Assembly (NCBI GenBank): GCA_020431405.1
Contig: JAGQIK010000432.1
Coordinates: forward strand, 1 to 39,332
Source: Myxococcales bacterium
GTDB lineage: Bacteria; Myxococcota_A; Polyangia; GCA-2747355
Direction of reading: 5' to 3'
DNA: 39,332 nt
Part shown: piece by piece, positions 5,798 to 36,849 of the stretch
How positions within the stretch are numbered: the first letter of the stretch is position 1
How the letters are laid out: every line of letters begins with the position of its first letter
The notes under the pieces: generated by a model
Seen by the model: the letters and a program-made list of their open reading frames with translations, nothing else
Database searches by the model: none
What the model was told of the DNA's origin: nothing
Translations under genes and position numbers: made by a program

Positions 5798-6751
5798 ATG
5801 AATGATCAGACACCAGCGAGTACCTCACCAGCATTCATGAATCACTGCGAAGTCTGCTGCGCAACGAAGTGGTCTGCGGTCGGCACGATCTACCGTGCCA
5901 GGGATCTACCGACGGCGGTCGAGGGCGCTGAAGCGACCCTCTACCGCTGCGACGGTTGTGGCTTTCGCTGGATCCACCCGACCCTGGACGAAGAGGCGTT
6001 GCTCGCTGGATATCGAATGATCGAAGCAGGCGCGTGGGGCGGCGCCGTCGAGAGCGACCACATCGAGCGTCGGCAGTTCGTGCCCAAGGCCCGCCTGCTC
6101 GCTTCGCTTGCGCCCCAGCGCCACGCCGCACTCGATGTCGGCTGCTTTCGCGGCGATTTCGTCTCACTGCTCGATTGCGAAGAGCGTTGGGGAATCGAGA
6201 TTTCTTCCGCTGCCGCTAGCGTGGCCCGACAGCGCGGCGTCAATGTGATCGAGGACAACGTCTTCGACGCTGCGCCCCCACGAGAGCACTTCGACATCAT
6301 CTCGTGCTTCGACGTCGTCGAGCACGTTACCGACCAGCGCGGTCTGGCCGCGCGTCTGGCGGACTGGCTCAAGCCTGGGGGCATCGTTGCAATCGAGACG
6401 GGCAACGCCGACTGCCTCGTTGCGCGCGCGATGGGCGCGCGATGGTACTACTATGCGCTGTCGCAACACCTATGCGCGCACACCGCCCGGTCGCTTGACT
6501 TGGCCATGGGTAGCGCTGGCCTCGAGCTCGTGCACTGCAAGCACGCCTGGCATCAGCCGCCGCAGTCGCAGCTGCGTGCTTTCGCCTATGTCGGCACGGC
6601 GCTGACGCACCGGGTTGCCTCCGACATCCTCGTTTCCCTCGATAGTGCCTGCATCGTGCCATCGCCGGTGATGAACCTGGCCAAGCGTCCATCACCCCAA
6701 CACTACTCTCGCGATCATCTCTGGCGCGTGTACCGCCGCGCGGCTGGTTAG
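5798..6751 (+). CDS. Class I SAM methyltransferase with N-terminal zinc-ribbon
   Basis: A 317-residue protein with two CxxC pairs near its start (CEVC at 17-20, CDGC at 51-54), the N-terminal zinc-binding ribbon seen on many sugar C- or O-methyltransferases. A Methyltransf_23-type core follows, with motif I ALDVGCFRGDF, a SCFDVVEHV segment and LKPGGIVAIETGN. It probably methylates a nucleotide sugar or glycan. ATG 5798 is chosen; a TTG three codons earlier (5789) is also open. Its TAG overlaps the GTG of the Wzx gene by one base, so the two are probably co-translated. Confidence 0.82.
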   Translation: MNDQTPASTSPAFMNHCEVCCATKWSAVGTIYRARDLPTAVEGAEATLYRCDGCGFRWIHPTLDEEALLAGYRMIEAGAWGGAVESDHIERRQFVPKARLLASLAPQRHAALDVGCFRGDFVSLLDCEERWGIEISSAAASVARQRGVNVIEDNVFDAAPPREHFDIISCFDVVEHVTDQRGLAARLADWLKPGGIVAIETGNADCLVARAMGARWYYYALSQHLCAHTARSLDLAMGSAGLELVHCKHAWHQPPQSQLRAFAYVGTALTHRVASDILVSLDSACIVPSPVMNLAKRPSPQHYSRDHLWRVYRRAAG

Positions 6752-8280
6752 TGAGCGATACCAGCAAAGTAGCGACCAACGCCCTATGGGCTTTTGCTGG
6801 GTTCTCTGGCCCCGTCGTGTTGATGCTCGTCGGCGTGCCGCTGTTCATTCGCTACCTTGGCCTCGAAGATTATGGCCTATGGACGCTGGCCAACTCGACG
6901 CTCGCCATCGTGGGGGTTCTCAACCTCGGCCTGGGCGACGCTACAACCAAGTATGTCGCCGAGTACACGAGTACCGGCCGAACTTCGGAGGTGACACGTG
7001 TCGTGATCGCGACAGTATCGCTTTATGCGGTCGTCGGAGTCGTCGGAACGATCGTGCTCGCGTGGCTCGCGGAGCCGATCACGCATGGCGTTCTACGACT
7101 ATCGGGCGCCAAGGCTAGCCGCGCCGCTGATATCATCCGCTTGGTCGCAATAGCTTTCGCACCGGCTGTCACCATGCCAGCCGTAACGGGAATCTTCGAC
7201 GGAAAGCAGCGGTTTCGCGCGTCGCAAATGCTCAATCTCACGCGTGCGACACTGTTCGTCTGTATCGGCCTTCTTGTACTCGCACTTGGAGGCGCCATAT
7301 CGGGCTTGGCTTTCACCAGCGTCGTAGTTACATGGACTGCTTTGATCGTTGGCAGCCTGCTAGCCGCACGCACGCTCGCGTGGCTTCCCTTCCGCGAGTG
7401 GCACGTGCGAAAGACCATGCGCAAGGTGGTCGGCTTTGGCGTCTATTCGATGCTGGTAGCGCTCGGGCGCATGGCGGTGGGGCACCTCGACAAGATGCTA
7501 GTGGGCCGAACCCTCGGTCTGTCGGCCGTCGGCGTCTTCGCCGTCGCACAGAACGCGGCATCGCGCTTGAACGACGCATGCGTTTCGGTGAGCCGAGTCC
7601 TGATGCCGTTCTTCAGCGCGAGGCAAGCGGATAGCGGCACGCAAGCGACGGCAGCCCCTCTCTATCAAGCATGGCGCGTTGGCGTCTTGATGATGATAGG
7701 CATCGCTACGATCGGGGCAGCTGCGGCACCCTCCTTCCTCGAAGTCTGGATCGGAAAGAAGCTGGCCGCGAGCGTCCTGACACCTTTCGTCGTCTTTGTT
7801 GTCGTCTATGCGTTGCAGGGAATCCATGTCGTTCCGTACTTCTACCTGGTCGGCGCTGGATACCCTCAGATCGGTGCACGGGCCATCGTCGTCGGAGGTG
7901 CTGTGACGATCGGCTGTGTCTGGCTTCTCGCCAAGCGCTATGGGGTGGTTGGCGCCGCAGCAGCCGAGCTGGCGTTTCCCATCGTCTCGAGCTGGATCTC
8001 GTTTGCGGCGCTGCGAAAGACCGAGCGGGGTGAGCAGTCTCCCATGCGAAGGGGGCTGGTACTGGTACTGCTCCTTCACGTTGCGGCGTTTGGCGCCGGA
8101 TTTGCCGTCGGTTATGGCCTACGGGCCGTTTACCCAGCGATACGGCTCATCGCAACGGCAGCGACGAGTAGCCTCACGCTGGCCGGCGGCTACTACCTGT
8201 TGCGCTCGGGATCGAACCCGTATGTATCAACCGTCTGGACAATCCTCAGACGTCTGCTGGCGCAACGCACACAACGTTGA
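6751..8280 (+). CDS. Polysaccharide flippase (Wzx/MATE-type)
   Basis: A 509-residue, very hydrophobic protein with about 12-14 predicted membrane helices, in the size range of Wzx-type lipid-linked oligosaccharide flippases. The N-terminus (VPLFIRYLGLEDYGLW followed by NLGLGDATTKY) is the recognisable start of the polysaccharide biosynthesis PST/RfbX-like family. It moves undecaprenyl-pyrophosphate-linked repeat units across the inner membrane. The start is GTG 6751, overlapping the upstream methyltransferase stop by one base. Its last 35 bp overlap the 3' end of the convergent FkbM gene. It is the only flippase in the window and so fits the Wzy-like proteins encoded further along. Confidence 0.9.
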   Translation: MSDTSKVATNALWAFAGFSGPVVLMLVGVPLFIRYLGLEDYGLWTLANSTLAIVGVLNLGLGDATTKYVAEYTSTGRTSEVTRVVIATVSLYAVVGVVGTIVLAWLAEPITHGVLRLSGAKASRAADIIRLVAIAFAPAVTMPAVTGIFDGKQRFRASQMLNLTRATLFVCIGLLVLALGGAISGLAFTSVVVTWTALIVGSLLAARTLAWLPFREWHVRKTMRKVVGFGVYSMLVALGRMAVGHLDKMLVGRTLGLSAVGVFAVAQNAASRLNDACVSVSRVLMPFFSARQADSGTQATAAPLYQAWRVGVLMMIGIATIGAAAAPSFLEVWIGKKLAASVLTPFVVFVVVYALQGIHVVPYFYLVGAGYPQIGARAIVVGGAVTIGCVWLLAKRYGVVGAAAAELAFPIVSSWISFAALRKTERGEQSPMRRGLVLVLLLHVAAFGAGFAVGYGLRAVYPAIRLIATAATSSLTLAGGYYLLRSGSNPYVSTVWTILRRLLAQRTQR

Positions 8281-9157
8281 ACGTCGCGCGTCCACCGAGC
8301 TGGGCGACGCGATCGCGAAGATCGTCGATGGGCTCGAATCCTGCTTCATCGTAGTAGCGATAGCCCACGCGCTCTAGCTCGCAGACGAGCGCATCTAGGC
8401 TATCGCCAACGCGTCGCTGCCAATAGTCGCTTACCTCGATGATCATCGCAGGCTTGAACCGTTTCAATGTCTCGCGGGCGCCGCGCAGAATCTTGGTCTC
8501 GTATCCGTCTACGTCAAGCTTGACGAAATCGAGCGAGGTCACACCGCGCTCGTGCACGAACTCGTCGAGCGTGATGAAGTCGACCTCTCCATGCTCTTCA
8601 GCGGTCTGCTTGCCGTCGGCGTTCCATTGCGACCGGAACGAATACTCGGTACGTGCTCGCGTTTCATCGGATAGTGCGCAATTGACGATATTCAGCGTCT
8701 GCGCCAGGTCCGGGTTGAGCTCGAGGTTCCGTCGCAGCTTCTTTGTTGCCCAGCCGGTCGGCTCGAACGCCCATACGTGCCCCGCGGGGCCTACCAGTCG
8801 AGCTAGCTGCAGCGCGTGGCAGCCAATGTTCGCGCCGATATCAAAGACCACCATGCCCGCCTCGACGATGCGTTCGATGGCCTCGGTCGTTCCAAGCTCG
8901 AAGTACCCGTCGTAGAAGATCGCACTGTCGATCTGTTGGGTCAGGTCGAGCTCGAACTGGATGCCTCTGCGCTCGACAACGACCCCGTTTCTGGCGAGCC
9001 GCTGTCGCACCCACAGGTCAACAGCTTGCAGCGCAGGAAACACCGGAGCCAAAACTGGCGAGCGCAACACGTCCCGAACGTAGCGTCGAAGGCGCAGCAG
9101 CGAGTCGACTGCCTTGTCCTGCAGCATCTTGTCCTGCAGCATCTTGTCTTGCAGCAT
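8246..9157 (-). CDS. FkbM family methyltransferase (start ambiguous)
   Basis: A 303-residue FkbM-type methyltransferase. The SAM-binding motif DIGANIG lies at about residues 106-112, VWAFEPTG follows, and the late motif LDVDGYE is present. FkbM enzymes O-methylate sugars or natural products; here a glycan hydroxyl is the likely target. The N-terminus reads MLQDK three times because of a 15-bp tandem repeat, giving three in-frame ATGs (9157, 9142, 9127). GAGGG lies about 10 nt before the first and AGGA 4 nt before the third, so the true start is open. It lies 6 bp after a second FkbM gene. Its 3' end overlaps the convergent flippase gene by 35 bp. Confidence 0.87.
   Translation of the reverse strand: MLQDKMLQDKMLQDKAVDSLLRLRRYVRDVLRSPVLAPVFPALQAVDLWVRQRLARNGVVVERRGIQFELDLTQQIDSAIFYDGYFELGTTEAIERIVEAGMVVFDIGANIGCHALQLARLVGPAGHVWAFEPTGWATKKLRRNLELNPDLAQTLNIVNCALSDETRARTEYSFRSQWNADGKQTAEEHGEVDFITLDEFVHERGVTSLDFVKLDVDGYETKILRGARETLKRFKPAMIIEVSDYWQRRVGDSLDALVCELERVGYRYYDEAGFEPIDDLRDRVAQLGGRATFNVVCVAPADV
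9113..9157 (-). repeat. 15-bp tandem repeat (3 copies) carrying three start codons
   Basis: Three consecutive 15-bp units (9113-9127, 9128-9142, 9143-9157), identical except for one base at 9149. On the minus strand each unit begins with ATG and encodes MLQDK, so copy number changes would add or remove five residues and one possible start without shifting frame. Confidence 0.9.
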
Positions 9158-9163
9158 CTTGGC

Positions 9164-9898
9164 CTAGCCCTCTTCGCGCCTGCGAAAGACCGCGTCGAGC
9201 GACAGGACTCTGCCGTCAGCCCCGTAGGTCTGCTCGAGGTTGCCCGCGTATTGGAAACCTGCCTCGCTCAAGAGCAGATAGATGTCGTGAAACGACGCTT
9301 GATTCTCGTAGAAGCCCTCGATGCTCGTCTCGACGATGCAGGCAGCGCATCGCTCGAGCGTTTCCAGTCCTCCGCGAATGACCCGGTCCTCGTAGCCCTG
9401 CACGTCGAGCTTGGCGAGAATGGGCGGTACCAACGCCAACTCGGACGCGATGTCGTCGAGGCGTCTAAGCTCGACGGGCTGCGGCCGATGCTCTTTGACT
9501 TGGGGATAGGTCTCCTCGAGCGCGCGTGTGGTGGCGAGCAACGACGACGATGGGGTGAAGTTGGAGTGCATGAACATGTCGACGCTGCCGCACTCGTCTC
9601 CAAGTGCAACATTCATCGCCTGAACACGCGCCTGCTCACCAGCCCATTGCTGCAGCTGCTCGAAGACCTGCGGCAGCGGCTCGAAACAGTAGAGCTGCGC
9701 CTCGGGAAAGACCGTAAGGATGATTCTCGCGAACTGTCCTCGATTGGCCCCGATATCGAGCACCGTGTTGACCTCGAGCGACTTGAGTCCGAAGAAGCCC
9801 TCCACGCGCGAGTATGGCCTTCGGGCGACAGAAAAACCGAGGCGACTGATCGCCACCTTCATCATCGATCGCAGCTGATTTCGAATCGCGTAGAACAT
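9164..9898 (-). CDS. FkbM family methyltransferase
   Basis: A 244-residue FkbM-type methyltransferase. Motif I VLDIGANRG is at residues 46-54, the acidic strand end is LYCFEPLP, and LAKLDVQGYE is the C-terminal motif typical of the family. It resembles the next gene in architecture but differs clearly in sequence, so the pair could be an old duplication or two separate recruitments. It sits between the NTP_transf_5-like gene (59 bp upstream) and the second FkbM gene (6 bp downstream). Substrate unknown; a sugar hydroxyl in the exported glycan is the most likely acceptor. Confidence 0.87.
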   Translation of the reverse strand: MFYAIRNQLRSMMKVAISRLGFSVARRPYSRVEGFFGLKSLEVNTVLDIGANRGQFARIILTVFPEAQLYCFEPLPQVFEQLQQWAGEQARVQAMNVALGDECGSVDMFMHSNFTPSSSLLATTRALEETYPQVKEHRPQPVELRRLDDIASELALVPPILAKLDVQGYEDRVIRGGLETLERCAACIVETSIEGFYENQASFHDIYLLLSEAGFQYAGNLEQTYGADGRVLSLDAVFRRREEG

Positions 9899-11143: not shown

Positions 11144-12121
11144 GTGCTACTCCGCGCCGCTACCCTCACCACTGCGCTCTGCCTCGTAGGTTGTGTGTTC
11201 GACTCCGGTGGCGTCAGCGTCACTAACGACCTCGCCACCGACCGTGGAATCGACGCCGGCGACATAGGTGGCGACGTGCCCGCCGATGCGCCCGAAGCGA
11301 GCGTCGAGACGTCCGGCGACTTGGACTCCGCGCCCGAAGCTGGCGACATGCCGATGGAGCAAGCCGATGACGTGCTCGACTCGGACAACGACGGCGTCCC
11401 CGACGCCAATGACAACTGCCCGACCGTGAGTAACACCAATCAAGACGATGTCGACGCCGATAACGTCGGCGATGCATGCGACAACTGCCCCACGGTGTCG
11501 AACTCGACGCAGGCGGATCTCGACAACGACATGATTGGCGACGAATGCGACCCCGACAAGGACGGCGACACGATCCCCAACGAAGTTGATCCCAACCCCC
11601 TCGTCGCCGACACGCCGCTCTACGGCGCGCCCGCGCCTTCTGCCTCCGTTGGTGACTTCACTGCTACCGGAACGTGGACGCCATCATCAGACGCGATCTG
11701 CAGCACCACCAGCGCGCTCGCCCGCTCTCTGCTGCTGAAGAGCAGTCAGCTCTCTCAAACCAACTTCAAAGCCGTCACCGAGGTAACGATCAGCCAAACG
11801 ACGAGTCCCGCGTTTGTCGGCCTGGGCTTTCGTACCAATGGGCAGACAGGCTATTTCTGCCTGGTGGAACGCGACACGGGGCAGTTGGTGCTGTCGAAAA
11901 CGACGACGACAGGGTCCACCATACTCGGCACTGCGAAAGTACCATCGCAGACTACATATGTACTGTCTGCACGTGCACAAGGCGCGACCCTCGTGTGCAA
12001 GATGGAACCGAGTGGACCCGACGTGACCATGACCGATAGCACTCTCATGTCTGGCACGGTAAGCCTTTACACGAGCAAAGCACAGGCGTGCTTTGGCTAC
12101 CTTTTTGTGCTCCAACCGTAG
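11144..12121 (+). CDS. Lipoprotein with thrombospondin type 3 repeats and a beta-rich C-terminal domain
   Basis: A 325-residue exported protein. The signal peptide ends at the lipobox LVGC (Cys17). An acidic linker (about 30-78) leads to TSP3-type calcium-binding repeats at about 79-153, with the [15 protein letters not shown] pattern and Cys pairs. Residues 157-325 form a Ser/Thr-rich, beta-rich domain of LamG/ConA-like appearance that may bind carbohydrate. GTG 11144 is the only suitable start, since an upstream ATG at 11135 runs straight into a stop. A TAGAAT hexamer at 11131-11136 leaves little or no leader. It is followed after 12 bp by another lipoprotein gene. The function is unknown; a surface role tied to the glycan is an inference from position. 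Confidence 0.8.
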
Positions 12122-12133
12122 TACGGAGTCGAC

Positions 12134-12928
12134 ATGTTTTGGCGCTATTTTAGACTAGTTCTTTCAGCTTGCGTTTTGGTCTCGGCATTCGCGTGCAGCC
12201 TCGCATTGGACACGGGCTCGCTGCAGGGCGGCGACGCGAAAACCAATACGAACGACATGGATGCTGGCGTCACAGACCTCGATACCACGGCGCCAGATCC
12301 CGACATCGGCGACCTTTTTATTCCGACCGAAGCCTCTTCTTGTCAGGACGGAGCGCCCTGCATCGTGCAGGGCAAGCTCGGCGAGTGCGCCATCGGCGAG
12401 CTCGATTGCAGTGGAGGCGGAACCGGCACGTGCAAACAAACGTACGTTCCTCATACGGAAACGTGCAATGGTAAGGACGAGAACTGCAACGGCCTCAAAG
12501 ACGATGTCGACGTCGCGGCACATACACAATGTGGCATCAATCGCCACTGCAACGGCACGCGCTGCGTGGACGGTTGCGTCTCCAACACCGACTGCGGTAA
12601 CGGCAACGCTTGCGACAAGTCTACCGGCAACTGTGTCTGTGGCCCCGCCGGACCGTGCTCGGGACCGCTGCGCTGCGGAGCCGGCGGCTTGTGCTACTGC
12701 AACGGCGACCTTTGCGAAGCGAACGAACGCTGCACGGGATCCGGCTCAAGTCGCGCTTGCACCCCCATCCCGGCCGACACGGGACCCGACACCACCATTG
12801 ATTCGGGCCCTGGCGACACCACCTTCGATCAGCCTGCGGGCGACACCACCGTCGACACCACTTCACCAGACACGTCGGTTGACTCGTCTGTTGATTCTGG
12901 CCCAGCGGACTCGGGCGACGCCGGCTAG
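12134..12928 (+). CDS. Cys-rich lipoprotein with MopE-like motif and Asp/Thr/Ser-rich tail
   Basis: A 264-residue exported protein with a hydrophobic leader ending at Cys21 (SAFAC, an imperfect lipobox). The middle has over 20 cysteines. CNGKDENCNGLKDD at 111-124 matches the MopE-type metal-binding motif found in Myxococcota surface proteins, and an EGF-like Cys pattern follows to residue 209. The last 50 residues are a low-complexity Asp, Thr, Ser and Gly tail (from about 214) of the kind that acts as a flexible surface linker. It lies between the TSP3 lipoprotein (12 bp upstream) and the O-antigen ligase gene (24 bp downstream), so all three are probably co-transcribed. Function unknown. 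Confidence 0.78.
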   Translation: MFWRYFRLVLSACVLVSAFACSLALDTGSLQGGDAKTNTNDMDAGVTDLDTTAPDPDIGDLFIPTEASSCQDGAPCIVQGKLGECAIGELDCSGGGTGTCKQTYVPHTETCNGKDENCNGLKDDVDVAAHTQCGINRHCNGTRCVDGCVSNTDCGNGNACDKSTGNCVCGPAGPCSGPLRCGAGGLCYCNGDLCEANERCTGSGSSRACTPIPADTGPDTTIDSGPGDTTFDQPAGDTTVDTTSPDTSVDSSVDSGPADSGDAG

Positions 12929-12952: not shown

Positions 12953-15220
12953 ATGACGGTCGCCCGCTTGTGCGCCACGGTCTCGATGGTCGCGCTCGCC
13001 GTCGTGCCGGCCATCCTCATCGGGTCGGTGCACCGGCCAGCCCAAATCGCCGCGGCGGCGCTGGCGGCAGTAGCGCTTGGGTGCGTGGTGGTCGCGCGGC
13101 GGGCTCACGGCGGCACTGGTGGCGTGGTTACTTGGTATGGCTACGTGTTGCTGGCGTTTGCGTTCTGGACCGCGCTGCAACTCATCCCACTCCCCGTCGC
13201 GTGGCTCGCTACCCTCGCGCCAAACGTCGCCGAGGTCGTCTCGATCTCGTCAAGAGCTCTCGCAAGCCCGCTGACCTCCTTTCCACTGTCGCTCGATCCG
13301 TCCGCAACAAGCTGGGAGCTCCTTCGCCTGCTAACGTGTGCTGTCGCTTTTGTTGCAGCGCTCAATTACCTGCACCGAGAACGACGACGACGCGTCCTAT
13401 CGCTAGCTCTGCTCGCGACGGGAACCTTGATGACGCTCGCCGGGCTGCTCGGCGCGTTCTTCGCCAAAGGAAAGCCCTGGCTACTCTACACGCCTTCATC
13501 GACGCATAGCGGCGACGGCCTCATCACGACAGCATTCGTCAACAGCAACCACGGTGCGTGCTTCCTCGCAATCTGCACGCTGTTGGGCGTCGGCCTTTCA
13601 TTGAAATCCGACAGGAGTCGCGTCTTTCGCTTCGGTGTGGTAGCCGCGACCATCGTATGCGGCGTGGGCGTCGTGCTGACGTTGTCGAGAGGGGGCATCG
13701 CGGCGCTCGCCGCGGGGCTCTTGGCTCTGCTCCTGCTCGGCTATCGCCAAAAGAACGGCAGCTGGATCCCGCTGTTCGTCGCGATCGGACTGCTCGCCGC
13801 GTGTGCTGCCTTCATACCTGCCGTCTTTCGCGAGGTGAGCAACACCAACGTCGACAAGTCGGCGCTGTGGGGTGTGGCGCTCGATATGGCCCGTCAAAAC
13901 CCGCTCTTCGGCGTGGGCAAGGGCGCTTTTGCGACGACCGTGGGCCGGTATCTCGATCCATCGATCGGAATGACGGCTTCGTACACCCACGCCGAAAACC
14001 AGTACGTGCACCTGATGGCCGAGGTCGGCGTCGTCGTGGGCGGGCTCCTCATCATCCTCTCGGCGGTCGCGTTCGTTCGATGGTTGAAGAAGGCAAAGCT
14101 CGACTTCACCACGATGGCCGCAGCAGCTTCGCTGGTCGCCGTCGCGGTCCAAAGCATCGCCGACTTCGGGCTCGAGTTCGCTGGACTGGCCGTACCAGCA
14201 GCGATGCTTGCGGGGGCCGTGGCAGCGGCTGCTGGACGACAGCAGGCCAGTAGGACAAGCCGCGGCATGACGCTCGCCGCGCTCGCCGCGCTCGTCGTCG
14301 CCGCCATCGTCATTCCCGTATCCGCCGGCCAGGACGCCTTCGCCTCTGCACTCACCATCAAGCCCGGTACGTCGGGCTGGCGCCGCCGCGCGAGGCAGGT
14401 GATCCGAAAACACCCGGCCGACTATTTCGCGCATCTCGTGCTCGCCCGCCACGAACGCGACCACCGCAAAGCACTCTCGGCGCTCGGTCGTACACTGGCG
14501 CTCGCGCCGCTGTCGGCAGCGGCACACGCCGAGGCGGCGCGGCGTCTGCACCTGTTGGGCCATCGCTCGCAAGCGATTCTCGAGTATGGGCTCGCGCTCC
14601 GCTACGGACGTCCTCGCCGCCGACTGCTCGAGCGCGGCGTCGACCTGAGCCGTACGACGCGAGAGCTGCAGACGCTTCTGCCCAGCCGCCCCGAAAGCTT
14701 CGTGTCAGCGATCGCGCGCCTACTGCGTACGCGCCGCTTCAAGCTGGCCGACGCGTTGGGGCGGGTTGCGTCGCGCCGCTGGCCGGCACACCTTCGCGTT
14801 CGTATCACGTCGATCACCGCTACCTCGTCGGACGGCGATCGACCTGCCGCGATCGCGGCGGCGAAGAAACTCGTGGCCTCCAACCCGGCGGTCGAAGCGT
14901 TTCGATTGCTGGTCCGCCTGCTTCGCGCGGCCAAGAGCGCCGACGAGAGCGTGTGGTTGCGCAAGGCCAGCCAGCGACATCCCGGAGACGTCAGGTTCGC
15001 CAGCGACCTAGCGCGGATCCTCGCGACGCAGCGAAAATACGACGACGCGATCTCGATCCTCGAGCGTGTCAAGCCGTACCTGAGCCGCCCCGCCCAAATG
15101 GCTCAAGTGTACGATTCGCTGTCCCAAATACACCGGCTCGCGGGTCGCCTTCATCGGGCTCGGTGGGAAAGCCAACAGGCTCGCCACTGGCGACAGCGCG
15201 CGGGACGAACAAAGCCTTGA
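12953..15220 (+). CDS. O-antigen ligase/polymerase family protein with C-terminal TPR-like region
   Basis: A 755-residue membrane protein. Residues 1-450 contain about 11-12 membrane helices with the Wzy_C/WaaL-type core: TLSRGG at 243-248, then GVGKGAFATTVGRY and HAENQYVHLMAEVG, the periplasmic-loop segment typical of O-antigen ligases and polymerases. From about residue 470 the protein becomes basic and helical with repeated Ala/Leu pairs, consistent with TPR repeats and with a soluble domain. Such two-part proteins occur in exopolysaccharide loci and may polymerise repeat units or attach glycan to an acceptor. This is one of two Wzy/WaaL-like proteins in the window. It is in line with the two lipoprotein genes upstream. 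Confidence 0.85.
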   Translation: MTVARLCATVSMVALAVVPAILIGSVHRPAQIAAAALAAVALGCVVVARRAHGGTGGVVTWYGYVLLAFAFWTALQLIPLPVAWLATLAPNVAEVVSISSRALASPLTSFPLSLDPSATSWELLRLLTCAVAFVAALNYLHRERRRRVLSLALLATGTLMTLAGLLGAFFAKGKPWLLYTPSSTHSGDGLITTAFVNSNHGACFLAICTLLGVGLSLKSDRSRVFRFGVVAATIVCGVGVVLTLSRGGIAALAAGLLALLLLGYRQKNGSWIPLFVAIGLLAACAAFIPAVFREVSNTNVDKSALWGVALDMARQNPLFGVGKGAFATTVGRYLDPSIGMTASYTHAENQYVHLMAEVGVVVGGLLIILSAVAFVRWLKKAKLDFTTMAAAASLVAVAVQSIADFGLEFAGLAVPAAMLAGAVAAAAGRQQASRTSRGMTLAALAALVVAAIVIPVSAGQDAFASALTIKPGTSGWRRRARQVIRKHPADYFAHLVLARHERDHRKALSALGRTLALAPLSAAAHAEAARRLHLLGHRSQAILEYGLALRYGRPRRRLLERGVDLSRTTRELQTLLPSRPESFVSAIARLLRTRRFKLADALGRVASRRWPAHLRVRITSITATSSDGDRPAAIAAAKKLVASNPAVEAFRLLVRLLRAAKSADESVWLRKASQRHPGDVRFASDLARILATQRKYDDAISILERVKPYLSRPAQMAQVYDSLSQIHRLAGRLHRARWESQQARHWRQRAGRTKP

Positions 15221-15311: not shown

Positions 15312-17105
15312 ATGAGTGCGGTGTTCGATCTAGGTGCCTTCTCCAGCGCTGTCGGCGCCGCGGTCGCAGCGATCGTCGTAGTCCTGACGATCCCGTTGGT
15401 CAAACGCCTCGCACATCGGGTCGGCGCCGTCTCCCGCCCGCGCGCGGACCGCTGGAAGCAGCGCTCAATCCCGATGTTAGGCGGCGTCGCGATCTTTGCG
15501 GGCGTGATGGTCGCCAGCGTGTTGTTCGCTCCGCTCGACAAGTCGAGGATCGCCCTTCTCGCCTGCGCCTCGGTGATGTTTTTTCTCGGGCTCGTAGACG
15601 ACGTTCACGAGGTCAAACCCTACGTCAAGTTGATCGTCCAGCTGCTCGCCGCGCTGGCGTTTTCCCAGCTGGGAGGCGTGCTGCCCTGGACGAAGAACGC
15701 ACTATTCAACCAAGCCGTCTCCGTCTTTTGGCTTGTCGGTATCTCGAACGCGTTCAACCTGCTCGACAACATGGACGGTCTGTGCGGCGGGATCGGCGCC
15801 ATCGCTGCCGCCTTCCTCGCCTACTTTTTGTGGAGCTACGGACAGACCGACGCCGTCACGCTGTCGCTGGCCATGGCTGCGGCGCTCGCTGGCTTTCTCG
15901 TGTTCAATTTCAGTCCCGCATCGGTGTTCATGGGAGACTCGGGTAGCCAGTTCGTCGGATTTTTTATCGGTGGGCTCGCGTTGCTGAGCAAGACGTATCG
16001 CACGCGAAACCTGCTCGCGGTCGTTGCCGTGCCTCTGCTGGTGCTACTGCTGCCGATCCTCGACACCACCTTCGTCACGGTCTTGCGCCTGCTCAACAAC
16101 CGCCCCGTCTCACAAGGCGGTCGCGACCACACATCACATCGTCTGGTTCAGCTTGGAATGAGCGAGCGTCGCGCTGTACTGATCCTTTACGGATTCACAG
16201 CAGCGTCGGGCGCGATGGCCGTGCTCGTGCGCAGCTGGGATGTTGGCCATAGCATCGCTTTGCTGCCGTTCTTCGCGCTCGCGGTCGTACTCGTCGCCGT
16301 ATATCTGAGCAGCGTCACAGTAATCTCGCAGCCGACCCAGGATGAATCTGGTCGCAACAACCGGCTGCAGTTTCTCGTACGCTTGCGCTACAAGCGTCAG
16401 ATCGCCGCCATCACCGCCGATCTCGTCGTCGTCGCCGCATCCTACTATGGCGCCTATCTGCTGCGCTTCGGTGGCTTCGAAGATCCAGCCCTTCGTGCTC
16501 TCTTCACCGAGTCGCTACCGGTCGTTCTGGGAGTGCAGCTGCTGGCGCTGTGGCTGTTGAGCGGCTACTCAGAAGGCTGGCGTCACTTTTCGGTCGCCTC
16601 TGGCATGCGCTACGCCCGCGCCGTGGTCGTCGGCACCGCCGGAGCAGCGCTGCTCCTGCTGTACATCACACGCTTTGAAGGGTACTCGCGCGCGGTTTTC
16701 GTAATTCATGGGCTGATCTGCCTGATCGCCGTGCTGGCGTTGCGCTCGTCGTTTCGCATGGTCGACGAGCTGCTCACGCGAGCCCGCACCGATGGCGTCG
16801 CGAGCCTTATCTATGGCGCCGGCGCGGGTGGCGATCTACTTGTACGCGAAGCACAGGCCAATCCTGCGATCGCGCTGCGCCCTATCGGCTTCATCGACGA
16901 CGACATGGCTAAGCGCGGATTGAAGATCCGTGGCATCCCCGTGCTCGGCAGCGGCGACGAGATCCTGACGATCCTCAACGACAGGCGTGTCGAGCAAGTG
17001 GTCGTCTCGTCGCAGCAGATCCCGTCGGACAAGGTCGACAACGTCGCCAAAGTCTGTAGCAAGCATCAGATCCCAGTCCGACGCGCGCGCATCGTAATCG
17101 AGTAA
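15312..17105 (+). CDS. WecA/MraY-type phosphoglycosyltransferase fused to a membrane and Rossmann module
   Basis: This 597-residue protein joins two recognisable parts. Residues 1-330 are a polyprenyl-phosphate GlcNAc-1-phosphate transferase (WecA family): DNMDG at 152-156 (Mg-binding Asp pair), MGDSGS at 207-212 and the HTSH motif at 273-276, amid many helices. Residues 350-597 resemble the N-terminal half of WbpM/FlaA1-type proteins: four helices, then a Rossmann domain with GAGAGGDLL near 502 and PIGFIDDD. The SDR catalytic domain of WbpM is absent. It probably primes the repeat unit by putting a sugar-phosphate on undecaprenyl phosphate. ATG 15312 follows a 91-bp gap. No sign of a frameshift at the junction. 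Confidence 0.85.
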   Translation: MSAVFDLGAFSSAVGAAVAAIVVVLTIPLVKRLAHRVGAVSRPRADRWKQRSIPMLGGVAIFAGVMVASVLFAPLDKSRIALLACASVMFFLGLVDDVHEVKPYVKLIVQLLAALAFSQLGGVLPWTKNALFNQAVSVFWLVGISNAFNLLDNMDGLCGGIGAIAAAFLAYFLWSYGQTDAVTLSLAMAAALAGFLVFNFSPASVFMGDSGSQFVGFFIGGLALLSKTYRTRNLLAVVAVPLLVLLLPILDTTFVTVLRLLNNRPVSQGGRDHTSHRLVQLGMSERRAVLILYGFTAASGAMAVLVRSWDVGHSIALLPFFALAVVLVAVYLSSVTVISQPTQDESGRNNRLQFLVRLRYKRQIAAITADLVVVAASYYGAYLLRFGGFEDPALRALFTESLPVVLGVQLLALWLLSGYSEGWRHFSVASGMRYARAVVVGTAGAALLLLYITRFEGYSRAVFVIHGLICLIAVLALRSSFRMVDELLTRARTDGVASLIYGAGAGGDLLVREAQANPAIALRPIGFIDDDMAKRGLKIRGIPVLGSGDEILTILNDRRVEQVVVSSQQIPSDKVDNVAKVCSKHQIPVRRARIVIE

Positions 17106-17149: not shown

Positions 17150-17178
17150 TTGCCAACTTCACCAGAACCTCCTATCTT
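17150..17178 (+). promoter_or_regulatory. Candidate sigma70-type promoter for the four-repeat lipoprotein
   Basis: TTGCCA (17150-17155) and TATCTT (17173-17178) are separated by 17 nt. The -35 element matches at 5 of 6 bases and the -10 at 4 of 6. Transcription would start near 17185, leaving a leader of about 44 nt before the GTG at 17229. The leader contains a strong ribosome site, GGAGGG (17217-17222), 6 nt from the start. Confidence 0.5.
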
Positions 17179-17228
17179 CGGCCTTCCTGGCCCACTCGCA
17201 GTTCCACCCAGACACCGGAGGGATCCAA

Positions 17229-19160
17229 GTGCGTAGAATTACAGGGTTGTTGGTCATTGGTTTCGTGCTTAGTTTGGCAGCGGGCTGTGGTTCAGACGCA
17301 GCGGACTCCATCGGGCAGCGAAAGATGGCAGTCGCGGTGACGTGGACCAATACGGTGTTCGTCAACACCAACGGCTCGAGCATCTCCAAGTCCACCGGCG
17401 GCGCCGCGTGGAATGCTGGCGCGGTGTCCAACGAGAGCTTCACGGGCGACGGCTATGTGCAGTTTTCCACGTCTGAGAACGACACTGCGAAGATGGGCGG
17501 TCTCAGTAACGGCGACGCCGACCAGAGCTACACCGACATCGACTTCGCCTTCTACCTCGCAGCCAACGGCCAGGCGTACGTGTACGAGGGAGGCGTCTAT
17601 CGCGCGTCCGTCGGACCGTACGTGGCCAACGACGTCTTCCGCGTTGCCGTGGTCAGCGGCGAGGTGCGGTACTACATCAACGGCCAGCAGGTCTACACTA
17701 GCGGGGGGACTCCGACCGAGCCGCTCGTACTCGACACGTCGATCTACACCGGCAACGCCACGATCACGAATGGTGACGTCACGGTGGGTGCGCCGCCGAC
17801 GTTCTGGCAGAACCTCGTGGGCGTCAACGAAGGTGCGATGAGCATCACCAAGACCGGCGCCTCGGGCTGGAACGCGGGCGCGTCGAGCCAGGGCACGATC
17901 AATGAGACCGGCTACGCCCAGTTCTCTCCGGGCGCGACCAACACGGCGCAGATGGCTGGCCTGAGCAATGGCGACACCGACACGAGCTACCAAGACATCG
18001 ACTTTGCCGTGTACATGGCTGCCAACGGGAGCTTCTTCATTTTCGAGGGTGGCGCGTCGCGCGGCAGCTTCGGCACTTATCAGGCGGGCGACACGTTCCG
18101 CGTAAGCGTCAGCGCCGCGGGCACCGTGACCTACAGCCGCAACGGCACGGTCTTCTATACCAGCACGGGCACGCCGACGTTCCCGCTGCGCGTCGACACC
18201 TCGCAGTTCACGCCGGGTGCTGTACTCAACAGCGTCTCGATCGCGCGATTCTGGCAGAACATCGTCGGCGTGAGCACCGCCGGCGCCGGCCTAACCAAAA
18301 CCGGCGCGGTCGGCTGGAACGCCGGCGCGTCGAGCTCGGTGTCCATCGCGGGCGACGGCTACATGGAATTCACCACCGCGGAGACGAACACCTACAAGAT
18401 GGCCGGCCTTAGCAACGGCGACACCGACCAGAACTACACCGATATCGACTACGCTGTATATCTCGGCGGCGGCGGGAACGTCTACGTATACGAAAACGGC
18501 GCCTACCGCGGCGTGTTCGGCACGTACAACGTGGGCGACGTCTTCCGTGTTCAGGTTGTCAGCGGCGTCGTGACGTACTACCGGAACGGTCTGCTGTTCT
18601 ACACCAGCGGCGGCACACCGACCTCGCCGCTTCGCGTGGACACCGCGCTGTTCACCAATGGAGCCACGATCAATGGTGTGACCATTGCTGACGGCACTCC
18701 GACGGTGGGCTGGCAGAACCTCGCCAATGTCAGCGTCAACGGCTCGAGCCTGACCAAGACGGTCTACACCGGCTGGAACGGCGGCGCATCGACCACCAAT
18801 ACCATCGCCGCCAACGGCTACGTCGAGTTCACCACTGCCGAGGCCAACACCGCCAAGATGGCCGGCCTGAGCAATGGCGACACCGACGCGAGCTACCAGG
18901 ACATCGACTTCGCGTTCTACCTGGGCGCAAACGGCGTTGTGTACATCTACGAGGGCGGCGCCCTCCGCGCAACCATCGGCGCCTACCAGGCGGGCGATAC
19001 GTTCCGCGTACAGAACACCGGAGGGACGATCACGTACTTGCAGAACGCCAACGTCGTCTACACCAGTGGTGGAACGCCGACGTCCCCGCTGCGCTTGGAC
19101 ACGTCGCTGTTCACCATCGGCGCGACGATCAACAACGTCACGCTCGTTCCCACGATGTAG
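17229..19160 (+). CDS. Lipoprotein with four tandem ~150-residue beta-rich repeats
   Basis: A 643-residue exported protein. GTG 17229 is supported by GGAGGG 6 nt upstream. The signal peptide ends in LAAGC (Cys20). From Trp39 the rest is four end-to-end repeats of 154, 149, 153 and 149 residues, with recurring GWNAGA, KMAGLSNGD, DIDFA, YTSGGTPTxPL and VDTS motifs. Repeats 1 and 3 share YTDID and VVSG features; repeats 2 and 4 share YQDID and YQAGDTFRV. The repeat looks beta-rich, in the style of ConA/jelly-roll surface domains, and probably binds carbohydrate or another surface ligand. It has its own candidate promoter and a hairpin after the stop, suggesting independent expression. Function unknown. 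Confidence 0.82.
   Translation: MRRITGLLVIGFVLSLAAGCGSDAADSIGQRKMAVAVTWTNTVFVNTNGSSISKSTGGAAWNAGAVSNESFTGDGYVQFSTSENDTAKMGGLSNGDADQSYTDIDFAFYLAANGQAYVYEGGVYRASVGPYVANDVFRVAVVSGEVRYYINGQQVYTSGGTPTEPLVLDTSIYTGNATITNGDVTVGAPPTFWQNLVGVNEGAMSITKTGASGWNAGASSQGTINETGYAQFSPGATNTAQMAGLSNGDTDTSYQDIDFAVYMAANGSFFIFEGGASRGSFGTYQAGDTFRVSVSAAGTVTYSRNGTVFYTSTGTPTFPLRVDTSQFTPGAVLNSVSIARFWQNIVGVSTAGAGLTKTGAVGWNAGASSSVSIAGDGYMEFTTAETNTYKMAGLSNGDTDQNYTDIDYAVYLGGGGNVYVYENGAYRGVFGTYNVGDVFRVQVVSGVVTYYRNGLLFYTSGGTPTSPLRVDTALFTNGATINGVTIADGTPTVGWQNLANVSVNGSSLTKTVYTGWNGGASTTNTIAANGYVEFTTAEANTAKMAGLSNGDTDASYQDIDFAFYLGANGVVYIYEGGALRATIGAYQAGDTFRVQNTGGTITYLQNANVVYTSGGTPTSPLRLDTSLFTIGATINNVTLVPTM
17343..19157 (+). repeat. 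Four in-frame direct repeats, A-B-A-B arrangement
   Basis: The repeats begin at the Trp codons at 17343, 17805, 18252 and 18711, with lengths of 462, 447, 459 and 447 nt. The two alternating lengths and the alternating residues at matched positions suggest that an A-B pair was duplicated as one block after A and B had diverged. Confidence 0.85.
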
Positions 19161-19175
19161 CTGCGTCCTACCTAC

Positions 19176-19200
19176 GCCAGGGGCGCTCGGCGCCCCTGGC
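19176..19200. terminator. Bidirectional terminator-like hairpin
   Basis: A perfect 11-bp stem (19176-19186 with 19190-19200) and a TCG loop lies in the 42-bp gap between the four-repeat lipoprotein and the convergent GT2 gene. The GC-rich stem could act in both directions, but neither side has a run of T, so factor-independent termination is not assured. Confidence 0.6.
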
Positions 19201-20205: not shown

Positions 20206-22413
20206 ATGGAAATCCTGCCGGACACCATTCATCAGAAACAGGATCAAAGCCGCCCCCGCGCGACGGTGGGGCTCGGCGAGCGCTACCTCACTGTCGTTCG
20301 CAAGCATAAGCTATTGATCTTAGTAGTTTTTATTCTTGTAGCAGGCGCGGCGGCGGCCTGGACGATGACGCGCGTTCGGATCTACGGCGCGACGACCACG
20401 CTACTGCTCGATCGGCGAGCCCCGCAGGTGCTGGGCAAGGAGGTCCGCGAGGTCGTTGACACGTCCATGGGCGCCTTCTGGCGCAACAAAGAGTATCTCC
20501 AAACGCAAATTCTTGTTATCACGAGCAAATCGCTCGCGCTCCGCGTCGTTAAGAAGCACGCACTCGCCCGGGATCCCAAGTTCTGGGCCCACCGCAAGCA
20601 CACTGGCAAACCCCTGCACGAGGCGGGGACCGACGAGCAGGCTGCGACGTACCTCCGCAGCCGGATTCAGGCCTCATCGGTGAAGGCCGCGAACATCATC
20701 GAGATCACGGTTACCCACCCCGACTCCGGCATGGCGGCGCGCCTCGCCAATGCGATCGCCGACAGCTACATGTCCCTCAGTGTCGAACACAAGCTCGCGT
20801 CGACCACGCACGCCGTCAAGTGGCTGTCCAACCAGCTCGACACGCTCAAAAAGCAACTCGACAGCAGCGAGCTCGCGTTGCACAGGTTCAAGCGCAAGAA
20901 CAACATCGTCTCGGTGTCCCTTGAGGACAAGCAGAACCTGCTGGCCAGGCGTATCGCGACGCTCAATACAGCGCTCACTGAGATCAGGCTCAAGCGCATG
21001 ACCGTCGCGTCGAAGCGCCACCAGTACAAGCGTTCGAAGAAGGGCCCGGCGCTCAACGTCGTGCTCAAGGACGTGATCGACAATGACGTGATCAAGAATC
21101 TCAAGTCGATCTACGTGCGCGAGCGTCGCAGCTACGTCGCGCTACTACATCGCTACGGTGACAAATGGCCCGCAGTTCTGCAGCAGAAGGCGCGCGTCGC
21201 GGAGGCGAGAAAAGATCTCGAGCGCGAGGTCGTCAACCTTCAAGCCTCAGTCGACTCCGAATACTCGCGCATTCGCCGCAACGAGGCGGCCATCGCGGCT
21301 GCGCTGCAGGCCGCCAAGGACGCAGCGCTTGATCTCAATAAGCGGGAAGTCGACTACCGCCGTCTCAAGCGCAGCAATCAGAACACCTCAAAGCTCTACC
21401 GGCTAGTGCTCGAGCGGATGAAAGAGGCCAACCTGTCGGCGCAGCTGCGAGTGAGCAACATCCGGCGACTCGATCGCGCGGTCGAGAAGACTGTGCCGAT
21501 CAAGCCGCACGTCCGGCTCAACATCATGTTGGGATGTCTGTTCGGCCTGTTGCTCGGCGTAGCGCTCGCTTTCGTCGTCGACGCACTCGACAGCACCATC
21601 AAGTCACAGGACGAGGTCGAAGCCACCACGCCGCTGACCTTCCTCGGCCTGATGCCTCGCATTCCAGGTAGCGCGCAGGTACGAGCAACGAAGGGGAAGC
21701 GACCCGAGCCTCGTCCCGACCTTGACCTAATCGTTCACCGTCAGCCCAAGTCGCAGATCGCCGAGTCCTGCCGCAACATCCGTACGAATCTGATGTTCGC
21801 GACGACGGACGTGCCAGCACGAACCATCGTTGTCACAAGTCCCGGCCCGCGCGAGGGCAAGACGACGACCGCGTTGAGCTTGGCGATCGCCATGGCACAG
21901 GCGGGCAACTCGGTCTTGATCGTCGACACGGACATGCGACGGCCTCGTATGCACAAGGTGCTGGACGTTCCTGGCACCGAGGGTCTCACTTCAGTGCTCC
22001 TCGGCCATGCCGAGCTCGAAGATGTGGTCAAGACCACCGAAGTTCCCAATCTCTTCCTGTTGCCCTGTGGTCCTACGCCACCAAATCCGGCGGAAATCTG
22101 CCACAGCGAGAGCTTCAAGCGGCTGCTCGACCGTCTGCAGGAGGGCTACGATCACGTCCTGCTCGACTCCCCACCGGTGATGGCAGTGACCGACGCTGTC
22201 GTTCTTACGACGCTCGTCGACGGCACGCTGATCGTCGCGCGCACGGGTGAGACGTCGCGCACGGCGCTTCAGGCCACCGCCAGACAGATCACCGACGTTG
22301 GCGGGCGACTACTCGGCTGCGTTCTCAACGACATGGATGTCGAGAAGAGCGCCTACTCCTACTATCGCTATCGCCGCTACGGCTACAGCTATGGCTACGG
22401 AACGGAAGAATAG
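20206..22413 (+). CDS. Wzc-type polysaccharide co-polymerase and BY-kinase
   Basis: A 735-residue fusion of a Wzz/PCP domain and a bacterial tyrosine kinase. Membrane helices lie near residues 35-53 and about 441-465, flanking a large periplasmic coiled-coil region. The cytoplasmic kinase has Walker A (GPREGKTT, about 547-554), Walker A' (LIVDTDMRR, about 571-579) and Walker B (LLDSPP, about 652). The last 18 residues contain eight tyrosines, the autophosphorylation cluster. It controls chain length and export by cycling of tail phosphorylation. The next gene, 47 bp on, is a Wzy-like protein, as expected for a polymerase pair. No low-molecular-weight or PHP-type phosphatase gene is seen here. 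Confidence 0.92.
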   Translation: MEILPDTIHQKQDQSRPRATVGLGERYLTVVRKHKLLILVVFILVAGAAAAWTMTRVRIYGATTTLLLDRRAPQVLGKEVREVVDTSMGAFWRNKEYLQTQILVITSKSLALRVVKKHALARDPKFWAHRKHTGKPLHEAGTDEQAATYLRSRIQASSVKAANIIEITVTHPDSGMAARLANAIADSYMSLSVEHKLASTTHAVKWLSNQLDTLKKQLDSSELALHRFKRKNNIVSVSLEDKQNLLARRIATLNTALTEIRLKRMTVASKRHQYKRSKKGPALNVVLKDVIDNDVIKNLKSIYVRERRSYVALLHRYGDKWPAVLQQKARVAEARKDLEREVVNLQASVDSEYSRIRRNEAAIAAALQAAKDAALDLNKREVDYRRLKRSNQNTSKLYRLVLERMKEANLSAQLRVSNIRRLDRAVEKTVPIKPHVRLNIMLGCLFGLLLGVALAFVVDALDSTIKSQDEVEATTPLTFLGLMPRIPGSAQVRATKGKRPEPRPDLDLIVHRQPKSQIAESCRNIRTNLMFATTDVPARTIVVTSPGPREGKTTTALSLAIAMAQAGNSVLIVDTDMRRPRMHKVLDVPGTEGLTSVLLGHAELEDVVKTTEVPNLFLLPCGPTPPNPAEICHSESFKRLLDRLQEGYDHVLLDSPPVMAVTDAVVLTTLVDGTLIVARTGETSRTALQATARQITDVGGRLLGCVLNDMDVEKSAYSYYRYRRYGYSYGYGTEE

Positions 22414-22460: not shown

Positions 22461-23819
22461 GTGTCGTCTGCAGCTCAAAGCGGCCCGCTGGCGCGGACCT
22501 TTGGCTTCGCGGGCGGTGGCTCGCGTCCGCTAACTCTACGCTACTACCTTCTGGCGGCTGCGGCGCTGCTGGCGTGGTGGGGACCCCCGCGTATTATTGG
22601 CGTCGATGCGTCGCGCACGACGGAGTCCGCGCTCAAGTATGACGTCGACGGTGCCGCCCTCCTGATCATCGTCAGCTGGGGTCTGATCTGTGCGGTCGTG
22701 TTCTTCTCGCTGATCAACCGACGCATGCAGCGCAAGCCGGTGCTCTCACCGCGACTAACTCGCGGTCCCCTGCTAGTGCTGTTCGCCTACGGTGCGCTCG
22801 CACTGTTATCGGCGCTGTGGGCTCCGTCGTTTCTGATCACGATCCTGCGAAGCGTACAGCTACTGTTTGCAATCTTGTTGATCGCGCTCTTTCACCAGGA
22901 GTCGATGGAGTGCGATGCCAAGGTTGGCCCACTGCGGCTATTTTACGGATACTGCGTCGCTCGCGTTGCCAATCACCTGTTTTTTCTGCTGGTGTCGCCG
23001 CGAGTCGTCATGGTCAAGGAGAACACGCGCGATCGCATCGGCCGCCTGCTCGGCGGCGGCCTGTTTCATCGCGACTATGGGGCGGCGACGACGTGCGTCG
23101 CAATCATGACGGCACACTCGCTCAGCCAGCGAATCGCCGCGCCAACGGTAGGCACGTGGCTGACATCCAATTGGATGCTGTTTCTCACGCGCATACGTGG
23201 CGTCATCCTGCCGACTGTACCCTGCGAAGCGTACCTTCTGATGCGTGGCCGCAGCCGCAGCCTACCGCTCCTTGTGTTCGGCGGACTCTTGAGCATCGCC
23301 GTCTATGCGGCGCTCTTCCCCGACGCAGTGTCGCAGTTCTTCGAGCAGTACGTCTTACAAAAGCACCGCTCTCTGACGACGCTGTCTGGTCGCACCTTTA
23401 TCTGGCAGTACCTTCTCGCTCGCTTCAGCGACAGCCCACTGTTCGGTTTCGGCTTCGCGACCGGCCCCCGCACGCTACTGCTCGGTCATACCACCGTCAT
23501 TGATGCCCATAACGTGTGGATCGAAGCGCTGCTATCGCTCGGCCTCGTCGGGCTCAGCCTATTGCTCTCGGCGTGCAGCTGGGGCTTCCTCCGCGCCTTG
23601 CGCATGAGCAGGCAAACCACCGACCCCGATGCGAGGTTGCTCGCAGTGTGGCTGCTGCTTCTACTTTCGCAATCGCTGACGTCAACAAGCATCGCGATGC
23701 GAAGCGACGAGCTTATCATCCTGCTGACCTACATCTCGTGCGGGCAGCTGTTGGCGCGCGTCCCAGCGACGCCACGCTCCCCTTCACCTCTACGTCCCCT
23801 GCCGCGCCGAGGAATGTAA
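22461..23819 (+). CDS. O-antigen polymerase-like membrane protein (Wzy family)
   Basis: A 452-residue protein with about 10-12 membrane helices. The late loop contains LSGRTFIWQYLLARF, SPLFGFGFATG and AHNVWIEALLSLGLVG, the pattern typical of the O-antigen ligase/Wzy superfamily. It would polymerise flipped repeat units in the periplasm, and its place directly after the BY-kinase co-polymerase supports this. The start is GTG 22461. Compared with the 755-residue ligase-like protein at 12953, it lacks the C-terminal soluble region. It is followed 4 bp later by a methyltransferase gene. Confidence 0.85.
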   Translation: MSSAAQSGPLARTFGFAGGGSRPLTLRYYLLAAAALLAWWGPPRIIGVDASRTTESALKYDVDGAALLIIVSWGLICAVVFFSLINRRMQRKPVLSPRLTRGPLLVLFAYGALALLSALWAPSFLITILRSVQLLFAILLIALFHQESMECDAKVGPLRLFYGYCVARVANHLFFLLVSPRVVMVKENTRDRIGRLLGGGLFHRDYGAATTCVAIMTAHSLSQRIAAPTVGTWLTSNWMLFLTRIRGVILPTVPCEAYLLMRGRSRSLPLLVFGGLLSIAVYAALFPDAVSQFFEQYVLQKHRSLTTLSGRTFIWQYLLARFSDSPLFGFGFATGPRTLLLGHTTVIDAHNVWIEALLSLGLVGLSLLLSACSWGFLRALRMSRQTTDPDARLLAVWLLLLLSQSLTSTSIAMRSDELIILLTYISCGQLLARVPATPRSPSPLRPLPRRGM

Positions 23820-29714: not shown

Positions 29715-30961
29715 GTCTGTCTCCCGTGCTGCAGGGCGCTCGCGTAGACCTCGGCGATGAACTCGCCTCTGCGGTCCCATACCATGATCTCGTCGGCGAA
29801 CGCTCGCGCAGCTTGGGCCCGCCTGCTTCTCTCGTCTTCGTCGCTGTACAGGCGCCATAGGCCGTCAGCAATGTCCCGCACCGCGCTTTCGTAGGAGCTC
29901 ACGCCAACCACTACACCTCTCGAATTGTCGGTCCAAAGCCCGGGACCACCTGCGTTGAGACACACGACCGGGTTGCCCGACTCCATCGCCTCGGCGACGA
30001 CCATCCCGGCGCCCTCGAAGCTCGGGAACAGAAAGGCGTCCGCTGACATCATCATCTTTAACACCTGTTCGCGAGGCACGTTGCCGTGCAGCTCTATCTC
30101 GTCACGTCCGAGCTTGTCGACCTCGCGCGCCACCACATCGTTGAGAGGACCCGAGCCCACGACGTCGAGGCGCGCTTGGGCACCACGCTCGACAAAACGT
30201 GCAAAAGCCTGCACCGCGAGTAGCGGCTGCTTGATGTACATTAAGCGACCTACACAGAGCACTCGGAACGGCTCGTGGCGTGCGTAGCGTCCTGCGGGCA
30301 AGTCGAGCGGCTCACAGCCCATTGCGGGGCACAGCACTACCTTGTGATGTTCCGAGGGTAGGACGTAGCGCAACACTTCTCGATTCAGCGCAAGGATGGT
30401 CGCGGCACGTCGTTGCATAGCTCGCATGATCGGGTCGATCTTCACCATCGCGCGCCGAACACGCCCTTTGGCGACCTCGCCTGCACGCACCTTCAAGCCG
30501 TAAGGCTCGAGGAATTCCTGCGGCACTGGCTCGTTGGAGCCCACCGAACCCCACACGAAGGGCAGGTCGTCGCTAACAAAAGCAAGAGCCGAAGGTATCC
30601 AGACCGTGGCGAACGTAAGGTGATGCGCTAGGTCGAATTTGATCCTCGCATGCCATCGCCGCGCGAGCGGAAGCATCGCCATCTGCCAGAGGTAGTAGTA
30701 TGGATAGAGGTTGCGTGGTCCGCGCTTGAACCGTCGGATCCACTGCGGAAGATCGTGGCCGATTACCGTGAGACGCTCGCTGAGTCCGAACTCAGCGGCG
30801 CCTGCCTCGACGAGTTCGACGACGTTTTCGCGAGTGATGAGCCAGAGCTCGTGGCGCGAGGCGATCTGCCGCACCCAGTTCCAGCCGATTCCAGCCTCGG
30901 AGCCGGCATGAGGCTCACACGTGTAGGCTGATGCGAGAATTCGTAGCGGGCGGTCAGCCAT
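29711..30961 (-). CDS. Glycosyltransferase family 4
   Basis: A 416-residue GT-B enzyme. The N-terminus has [19 protein letters not shown], a loop shared by a GT4 subgroup in polysaccharide loci. [14 protein letters not shown] and [20 protein letters not shown] follow, with an intact E-x7-E and the usual nucleotide-sugar pocket. Role: adds one sugar to the lipid-linked unit; the donor is not clear. It starts 8 bp inside the end of the APH-type gene and ends in a GTGA overlap with the acyltransferase. Confidence 0.88.
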
Positions 30962-32982: not shown

Positions 32983-32986
32983 GGTC

Positions 32987-36572: not shown

Positions 36573-36835
36573 CAAGAGTTTCCGCGCGTCGAAATCGTGG
36601 ATTGTTGCGACGTTGGATCATTTTTACCGCGCGCGGCGGGCCGCCTGTTTTACACGTTTCTGACCCCATATTCTGGGCACCTGGAGATGGGATGCCGCAG
36701 CGAGGCGGGGCGTTCATGCTGGGGTGATTACGAGGAGTTGGAAGGTAGGTGGGTGTGTGACAGAGCGGGATCCAACGCCGCGGCCGCACAGTGCCGCGAC
36801 GGATCCGGGTGCCGAGCTACTCGGGCGTCGAGCCT

Positions 36836-36849
36836 CGGCGTGCCCGCCG
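36836..36849 (-). terminator. Weak hairpin after the AgmX-type gene
   Basis: A perfect 5-bp stem (CGGCG/CGCCG, 4-base loop) directly follows the stop codon of the minus-strand gene. There is no T-tract, so termination is only suggested by position. Confidence 0.2.

Follow-up and report, generated by a model that had tools for sequence, protein, structure and literature searches.

A tandem-repeat lipoprotein with predicted concanavalin A-like modules in a Wzx/Wzy polysaccharide locus of a Myxococcales bacterium

SPRY/B30.2 domains (PF00622) are known protein-interaction domains, and most of those described bind proteins. They share a concanavalin A-like (ConA-like) beta-sandwich with the module described here, a repeat of about 150 residues found four times in a lipoprotein of a Myxococcales bacterium (TMq 0.60-0.72), but SPRY domains belong to intracellular adaptors whereas the repeat forms extracytoplasmic tandem arrays and has no sequence match to them. 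Laminin_G_3 (PF13385), CBM66 and the galectins are of the same fold class and are likewise found repeated in surface proteins, where they act in binding, and one relative of the lipoprotein bears a Laminin_G_3 domain next to these repeats; however, there is no significant Laminin_G_3 sequence match and the TM-scores are lower (TMq 0.50-0.56 for CBM66). At the level of sequence, the homologue of the repeat is a phage virion domain (phrog_19691 and phrog_26502; chain Q of PDB entry 26gp), which differs in being present once, occasionally up to three times, in a large protein and not as a tandem lipoprotein array. A functional analogy, and no more than that, can be proposed with Bap1, RbmC and RbmA of Vibrio cholerae, which are secreted and kept in the cell's own exopolysaccharide matrix, Bap1 and RbmC carrying lectin domains (PMC3161981). 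The matrix lectins of V. cholerae have a beta-prism fold and no lipid anchor, unlike the ConA-like repeat, and no homology is claimed.

The window, by which we mean the whole stretch of 39,332 nucleotides that was analysed, is filled for the most part by a polysaccharide locus. Pfam searches identified a Wzx-type flippase (Polysacc_synt; 6751-8280, + strand), a Wzy_C polymerase/ligase with TPR (12953-15220, +), a phosphoglycosyltransferase (Glycos_transf_4 and CoA_binding_3; 15312-17105, +), a polysaccharide co-polymerase of the Wzc type (Wzz/GNVR/AAA_31; 20206-22413, +), a second Wzy_C protein (22461-23819, +) and a short OPX export protein of 229 residues made of Poly_export (PES) and SLBB only (33872-34561, - strand). 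Several glycosyltransferases, methyltransferases and nucleotide-sugar genes are also found in the window. With Wzx, two Wzy_C proteins, phosphoglycosyltransferase, Wzc-type protein and OPX all present, the label of polysaccharide locus given by the sequence-only reading, which was made from the letters alone, is right: the locus is a genuine Wzx/Wzy one and the lipoprotein gene sits between the phosphoglycosyltransferase and Wzc genes. The two Wzy_C proteins, the first of which has its TPR at the C-terminus, flank the lipoprotein and Wzc genes on the same strand.

The lipoprotein gene (17229-19160, +) starts with GTG, encodes 643 residues and is single-copy in its own 11.2-Mb genome according to a genome-wide search. 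Its product opens with a lipoprotein signal peptide (17229-17288), MRRITGLLVIGFVLSLAAGC, which ends in the lipobox LAAG-C with Cys20 as the predicted lipidation residue (codon 17286-17288) and is disordered in the full-length model; the protein is on this sequence evidence a predicted lipoprotein. Third-position GC is 0.85-0.90 in the repeats (17343-19157), 0.75-0.79 in the adjoining genes and 0.61 in the signal-peptide part. The gene had also been credited with expression signals of its own. Indeed, the ribosome-binding site GGAGGG (17216-17221, +) is clear, with GGAGG 8-9 nt upstream of the GTG. A separate promoter is unsupported, the candidate site at 17150-17178 (9/12) being at chance level, with 2 such sites found versus 1.3 expected. 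The downstream hairpin (19176-19200; z = -3.1) is real, a perfect 11-bp GC stem in the gap between convergent genes. It lacks a T-tract, however, and terminator prediction did not call it as an intrinsic terminator; a bidirectional terminator is one possible function. The hairpin is the sole copy in the genome in a search allowing up to 2 mismatches, which rules out a dispersed genomic repeat.

As the sequence-only reading had claimed, four repeats follow the signal peptide, each opened by an in-frame Trp codon at 17343, 17805, 18252 or 18711. Repeat 1 (17343-17804, +; 154 residues), repeat 2 (17805-18251, +; 149 residues), repeat 3 (18252-18710, +; 153 residues) and repeat 4 (18711-19157, +; 149 residues) were delineated by alignment, profile and model, repeat 1 being predicted as a SPRY/ConA-like beta-sandwich and repeat 3 being the copy that was also modelled alone. 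They share 51-61 % identity in protein and 60-69 % in DNA, and each scores 258-271 bits against a profile built from the four themselves. A de novo search for DNA repeats independently recovered the same array as a 4-copy family of about 450 nt; together with the profile scores, this places the array far beyond chance.

The proposed A-B-A-B order, with repeats 1 and 3 on one side and 2 and 4 on the other, has modest support from the DNA and none from overall protein identity. Informative DNA sites favour the 13|24 pairing (24 sites versus 13 and 11) and a DNA quartet AU test gives it 0.95, versus 0.044 and 0.069 for the other two pairings; the linkers of the array also alternate between long and short. 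Protein identity is highest between repeats 3 and 4 (61 %), followed by 2 and 3 (59 %), 2 and 4 (58 %) and 1 and 3 (55 %), and the informative protein sites split 4:5:4 over the three pairings; the protein quartet test favours none. In a protein tree including 56 repeats of relatives, repeats 2 and 4 pair (99/71) and repeats 1 and 3 are not recovered together, and none of the repeat pairings tested is rejected. With the DNA quartet for one pairing and the protein split, a duplication of a two-repeat block is plausible and would be old, its support in the DNA being modest and short of proof.

The repeat family had not been recognised from the letters, and no Pfam or NCBIfam model names the module. 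The whole protein has no convincing match in Pfam, NCBIfam or the PDB sequences, nor do 63 family members match any Pfam family convincingly. We rejected membership of Pfam SPRY, which does not match the window protein up to an E-value of 10 and is absent at E ≤ 0.1 from the families listed for the 63 members, and that of Laminin_G_3, which matches 1 of the 63 at a non-significant E-value of 0.026. Phage virion proteins, on the other hand, are clear homologues: 59 of the 63 members match the virion structural protein family phrog_19691 (best E-value 1.8e-20), repeat 3 does so at 4.7e-13, and 26gp chain Q is a sequence homologue at 1.3e-4. The phiST homologue matched no PDB chain by phmmer. Published papers mentioning the peptide motifs of the repeat were not found, the literature on bacterial SPRY or ConA yielded nothing about the family, and entry 26gp has no associated paper that we could find. 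Elsewhere in the same genome, a lipoprotein-like pair (L096, contig C293, 23162-25146) gives weak Pfam SPRY matches, one of them just over the cut-off; it is the sole such pair among the 116 genomes of the class that were searched and has no sequence relation to the repeat, an hhalign comparison of the repeat with the SPRY-positive lipoprotein giving a probability of 0.2 and no profile match.

Structure prediction for a single repeat, a check suggested along with the original description, allowed us to place the module by fold. The AlphaFold2 model of repeat 3, made with a 63-row alignment, is confident (pLDDT 96.1, pTM 0.90) and nearly all beta, a jelly-roll beta-sandwich that can be aligned with solved ConA-like domains. 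All the Foldseek matches listed from the PDB are ConA-like (TMq up to 0.72, E-value about 7e-5), the closest of those listed being the SPRY/B30.2 domains of ASH2L, TRIM9 and MID2 (TMq about 0.70), TRIM25 and others. CBM66, galectin-10, PL7 alginate lyases and a 1,3-1,4-beta-glucanase are also among the matches listed, and a structural protein of Cellulophaga phage phi13:1 is one of the nearest fold matches from viruses (TMq 0.87, 26 % identity). The repeat, a real one, is thereby newly placed by its fold, and on the strength of this model it is almost certainly a ConA-like beta-sandwich nearest to SPRY/B30.2. The full-length model displays four separate beta-sandwiches joined by short linkers, with a mutual orientation that the model does not fix (mean pLDDT 82.8, pTM 0.52). 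Invariant or near-invariant residues, in repeat 3 numbering, are E81 (63/63) and D130 (61/63), and also G52, L53, W22 and Y109; as judged from conservation, these residues and the Y62-x-D64-I-D66 loop are candidates for a binding site.

A contig search with the single repeat sequence gave no match and relatives were found by an alignment-based search, the profile search with a repeat alignment having been the second check suggested. It brought up relatives across several phyla and in phages, and no named bacterial family. Counting the own genome, 13 of the 318 genomes in the class carry repeats, and the module spreads over Myxococcota, Acidobacteriota, Bacteroidota, Gammaproteobacteria, candidate phyla and phage virion proteins, with carriers outside the class in Blastocatellia, Bacteroidia, Flavobacteriales, Gracilibacteria, SR1, Burkholderiales, Hahella, Grimontia, Enterovibrio, Shewanella and Sphingobium. 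In Myxococcota, arrays comprise 1-6 modules, or 11 in one very large protein, and the carriers mostly have a lipobox or a signal peptide. Three loci (L063, L064 and L068) encode an M23 peptidase domain at the end of the protein, one of these M23 fusions having a weak SH3_3 match in addition, two loci (L071 and L073) encode fusions to GH18, and one Myxococcota repeat protein starts with a C-type lectin domain. Relatives are thus attached to carbohydrate-active or cell-wall enzymes (GH18, M23), and the window protein itself has no enzyme domain. In other phyla, the fusion partners are subtilase, PKD/beta-helix, TIG/DUF2341, bacterial Ig with Laminin_G_3, and T9SS-sorted proteins. The phage modules, one and occasionally up to three, lie inside large virion or viral-contig proteins, and one relative from an uncultured phage is annotated as an ash2 subunit. 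In one two-repeat lipoprotein array (L074, 9073-11304; G076, contig C471), an in-frame TAG interrupts the reading frame, which may mean that the gene is broken or that the assembly is wrong there.

How far the tie to polysaccharide export extends was read from the neighbourhoods of the relatives. None of the 11 other repeat-bearing genomes has a Wzy_C gene beside the repeat gene, three of them (G045, G076 and G078) being on short contigs, and where the two share a contig, a distance of about 169 kb or more separates them. Furthermore, when 77 genes neighbouring the relatives' repeat genes were sorted by Pfam family, the 25 most frequent families included no recurrent glycosyltransferase. In a genome of the same family (G001), an empty gap of 174 nt separates the Wzy and Wzc homologues and the repeat is absent; in one of the same order (G003), a membrane-protein-like ORF lies inside such a pair and the repeat is again absent. 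The genomes compared thus give no support to the repeat gene as a conserved component of Wzx/Wzy loci. The sequence-only reading had named conservation outside polysaccharide loci as what would speak against its proposal, and because of the lack of linkage to Wzy_C and of the two loci without a repeat gene, this largely holds for the gene family as a whole, with the window copy excepted. The link with polysaccharide export belongs to the own genome alone, and since these Wzy-Wzc loci do without the repeat gene, the lipoprotein gene is best read as a lineage-specific accessory addition to an older export locus.

Judged by its fold alone, the module could bind glycans, bind proteins or be an enzyme. 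The combination of arrays, lipoproteins and fusions to hydrolases or a lectin domain is typical of non-catalytic modules that bind glycans or cell walls. Non-catalytic, multivalent glycan binding fits best with the M23, GH18 and lectin fusions, the tandem arrays, the lipid anchor and the lack of a catalytic partner, and the module, as modelled, is somewhat more probably a glycan-binding one than anything else. Neither the subtilase fusions nor the occurrence in phage virions calls for glycan binding. Our preferred account, held tentatively and at a little under even chances, is that of a lipid-anchored surface lipoprotein with four glycan-binding modules whose likeliest ligand would be the polymer of its own Wzx/Wzy locus. 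The lipid anchor would place a chain of four ConA-like (SPRY-type) modules probably in the outer membrane and at the cell surface; each non-catalytic module would most likely bind glycan weakly, and four in a row would give the avidity to hold polysaccharide at the cell surface, making the lipoprotein an accessory retention or cross-linking factor and not a part of the export machinery. From the position in the locus, the own polysaccharide is the most economical ligand, although taken as a claim of its own this identification is rather doubtful. The surface, glycan-binding role put forward for the protein suits the fold and the fusion partners best; a conserved tie to polysaccharide loci found no support. 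A version in which the family is a general glycan-recognition domain and the window lipoprotein a dedicated receptor retaining the exported polysaccharide seems improbable.

For a large-genome myxobacterium, the glycans of prey or of the environment have to be taken seriously as another possible ligand. That the modules bind foreign surfaces such as prey walls, chitin or plant and algal glycans, making the lipoprotein an adhesin whose place in the locus is incidental, is unlikely overall but gains from the M23 fusions in the Nannocystis family and in members of the class with genomes of 12-15 Mb and from the GH18 fusions in others, which suggest delivery of lytic enzymes, and from the fact that no related gene adjoins Wzy_C. 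The window copy, however, lacks a catalytic domain and is enclosed by the phosphoglycosyltransferase and Wzc genes, a location with a low prior by chance (about 1 % of the genome), though it was this position that first drew notice. A less likely proposal is that the modules bind protein in the manner of SPRY domains and that the lipoprotein scaffolds an envelope complex, for instance parts of the polysaccharide export apparatus; it draws on the best fold matches (ASH2L, TRIM9, MID2), which are protein-interaction domains by general knowledge, and on the adjacency of Wzc. The absence of the repeat gene from the relatives' Wzy-Wzc loci, which indicates that export does without the lipoprotein, argues against it, as does the lack of sequence match to Pfam SPRY or to the SPRY lipoprotein of the own genome, and the fusions to cell-wall hydrolase, GH18 and lectin domains better suit glycan targeting. 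Finally, ConA-like folds include alginate lyases and beta-glucanases, PL7 and the 1,3-1,4-beta-glucanase are among the fold matches and two acids (E81 and D130) are nearly invariant, but it is very improbable that each module is a glycan lyase or hydrolase, given the poorer fit of PL7 when the domain is taken as a whole (TMq 0.53-0.56, rmsd about 7-8), the binding-module habit of arrays of up to 11 copies, some with separate catalytic domains, and the location of the phage copies in virion structural proteins.

Although it is shared by several bacterial phyla and by phage virions, the module is still without a model in Pfam or NCBIfam. Naming the family and giving it a structural place would allow many proteins now labelled "hypothetical" to be re-annotated, among them surface proteins, bacteriolytic enzymes and proteins of tails or virions. 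Should the module bind glycans, the lipoprotein would become a candidate for a step of which little is known, the keeping of exported polysaccharide on the myxobacterial cell, and the domain's presence in phages would point to recognition in their case as well.

Other features of the window deserve mention. Upstream of the first Wzy_C gene, the region 11144-12928 (+) encodes a protein with thrombospondin type 3 repeats and an adjacent lipoprotein-like, Cys/Asp-rich protein with no Pfam match; TSP3-like stretches also match parts of four repeat-carrying loci (L022, L023, L009 and L007). Two FkbM-type methyltransferases are neighbours at 8246-9898 (-), and a phosphotransferase-like protein (APH) lies beside a thymidylate-kinase-like protein at 30954-33012 (-), amid a run of glycosyltransferases. 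Two long ORFs overlap on opposite strands (36724-38487, +, 587 residues; 36850-38277, -, 475 residues), the shorter of which has no Pfam match. At 33872-35789 (-), the short OPX protein adjoins a predicted outer-membrane beta-barrel (BBP2_2/DUF2490, weak matches), an arrangement that resembles EpsY/EpsX, the composite OPX/beta-barrel export system of Myxococcus xanthus (PMC9601211).
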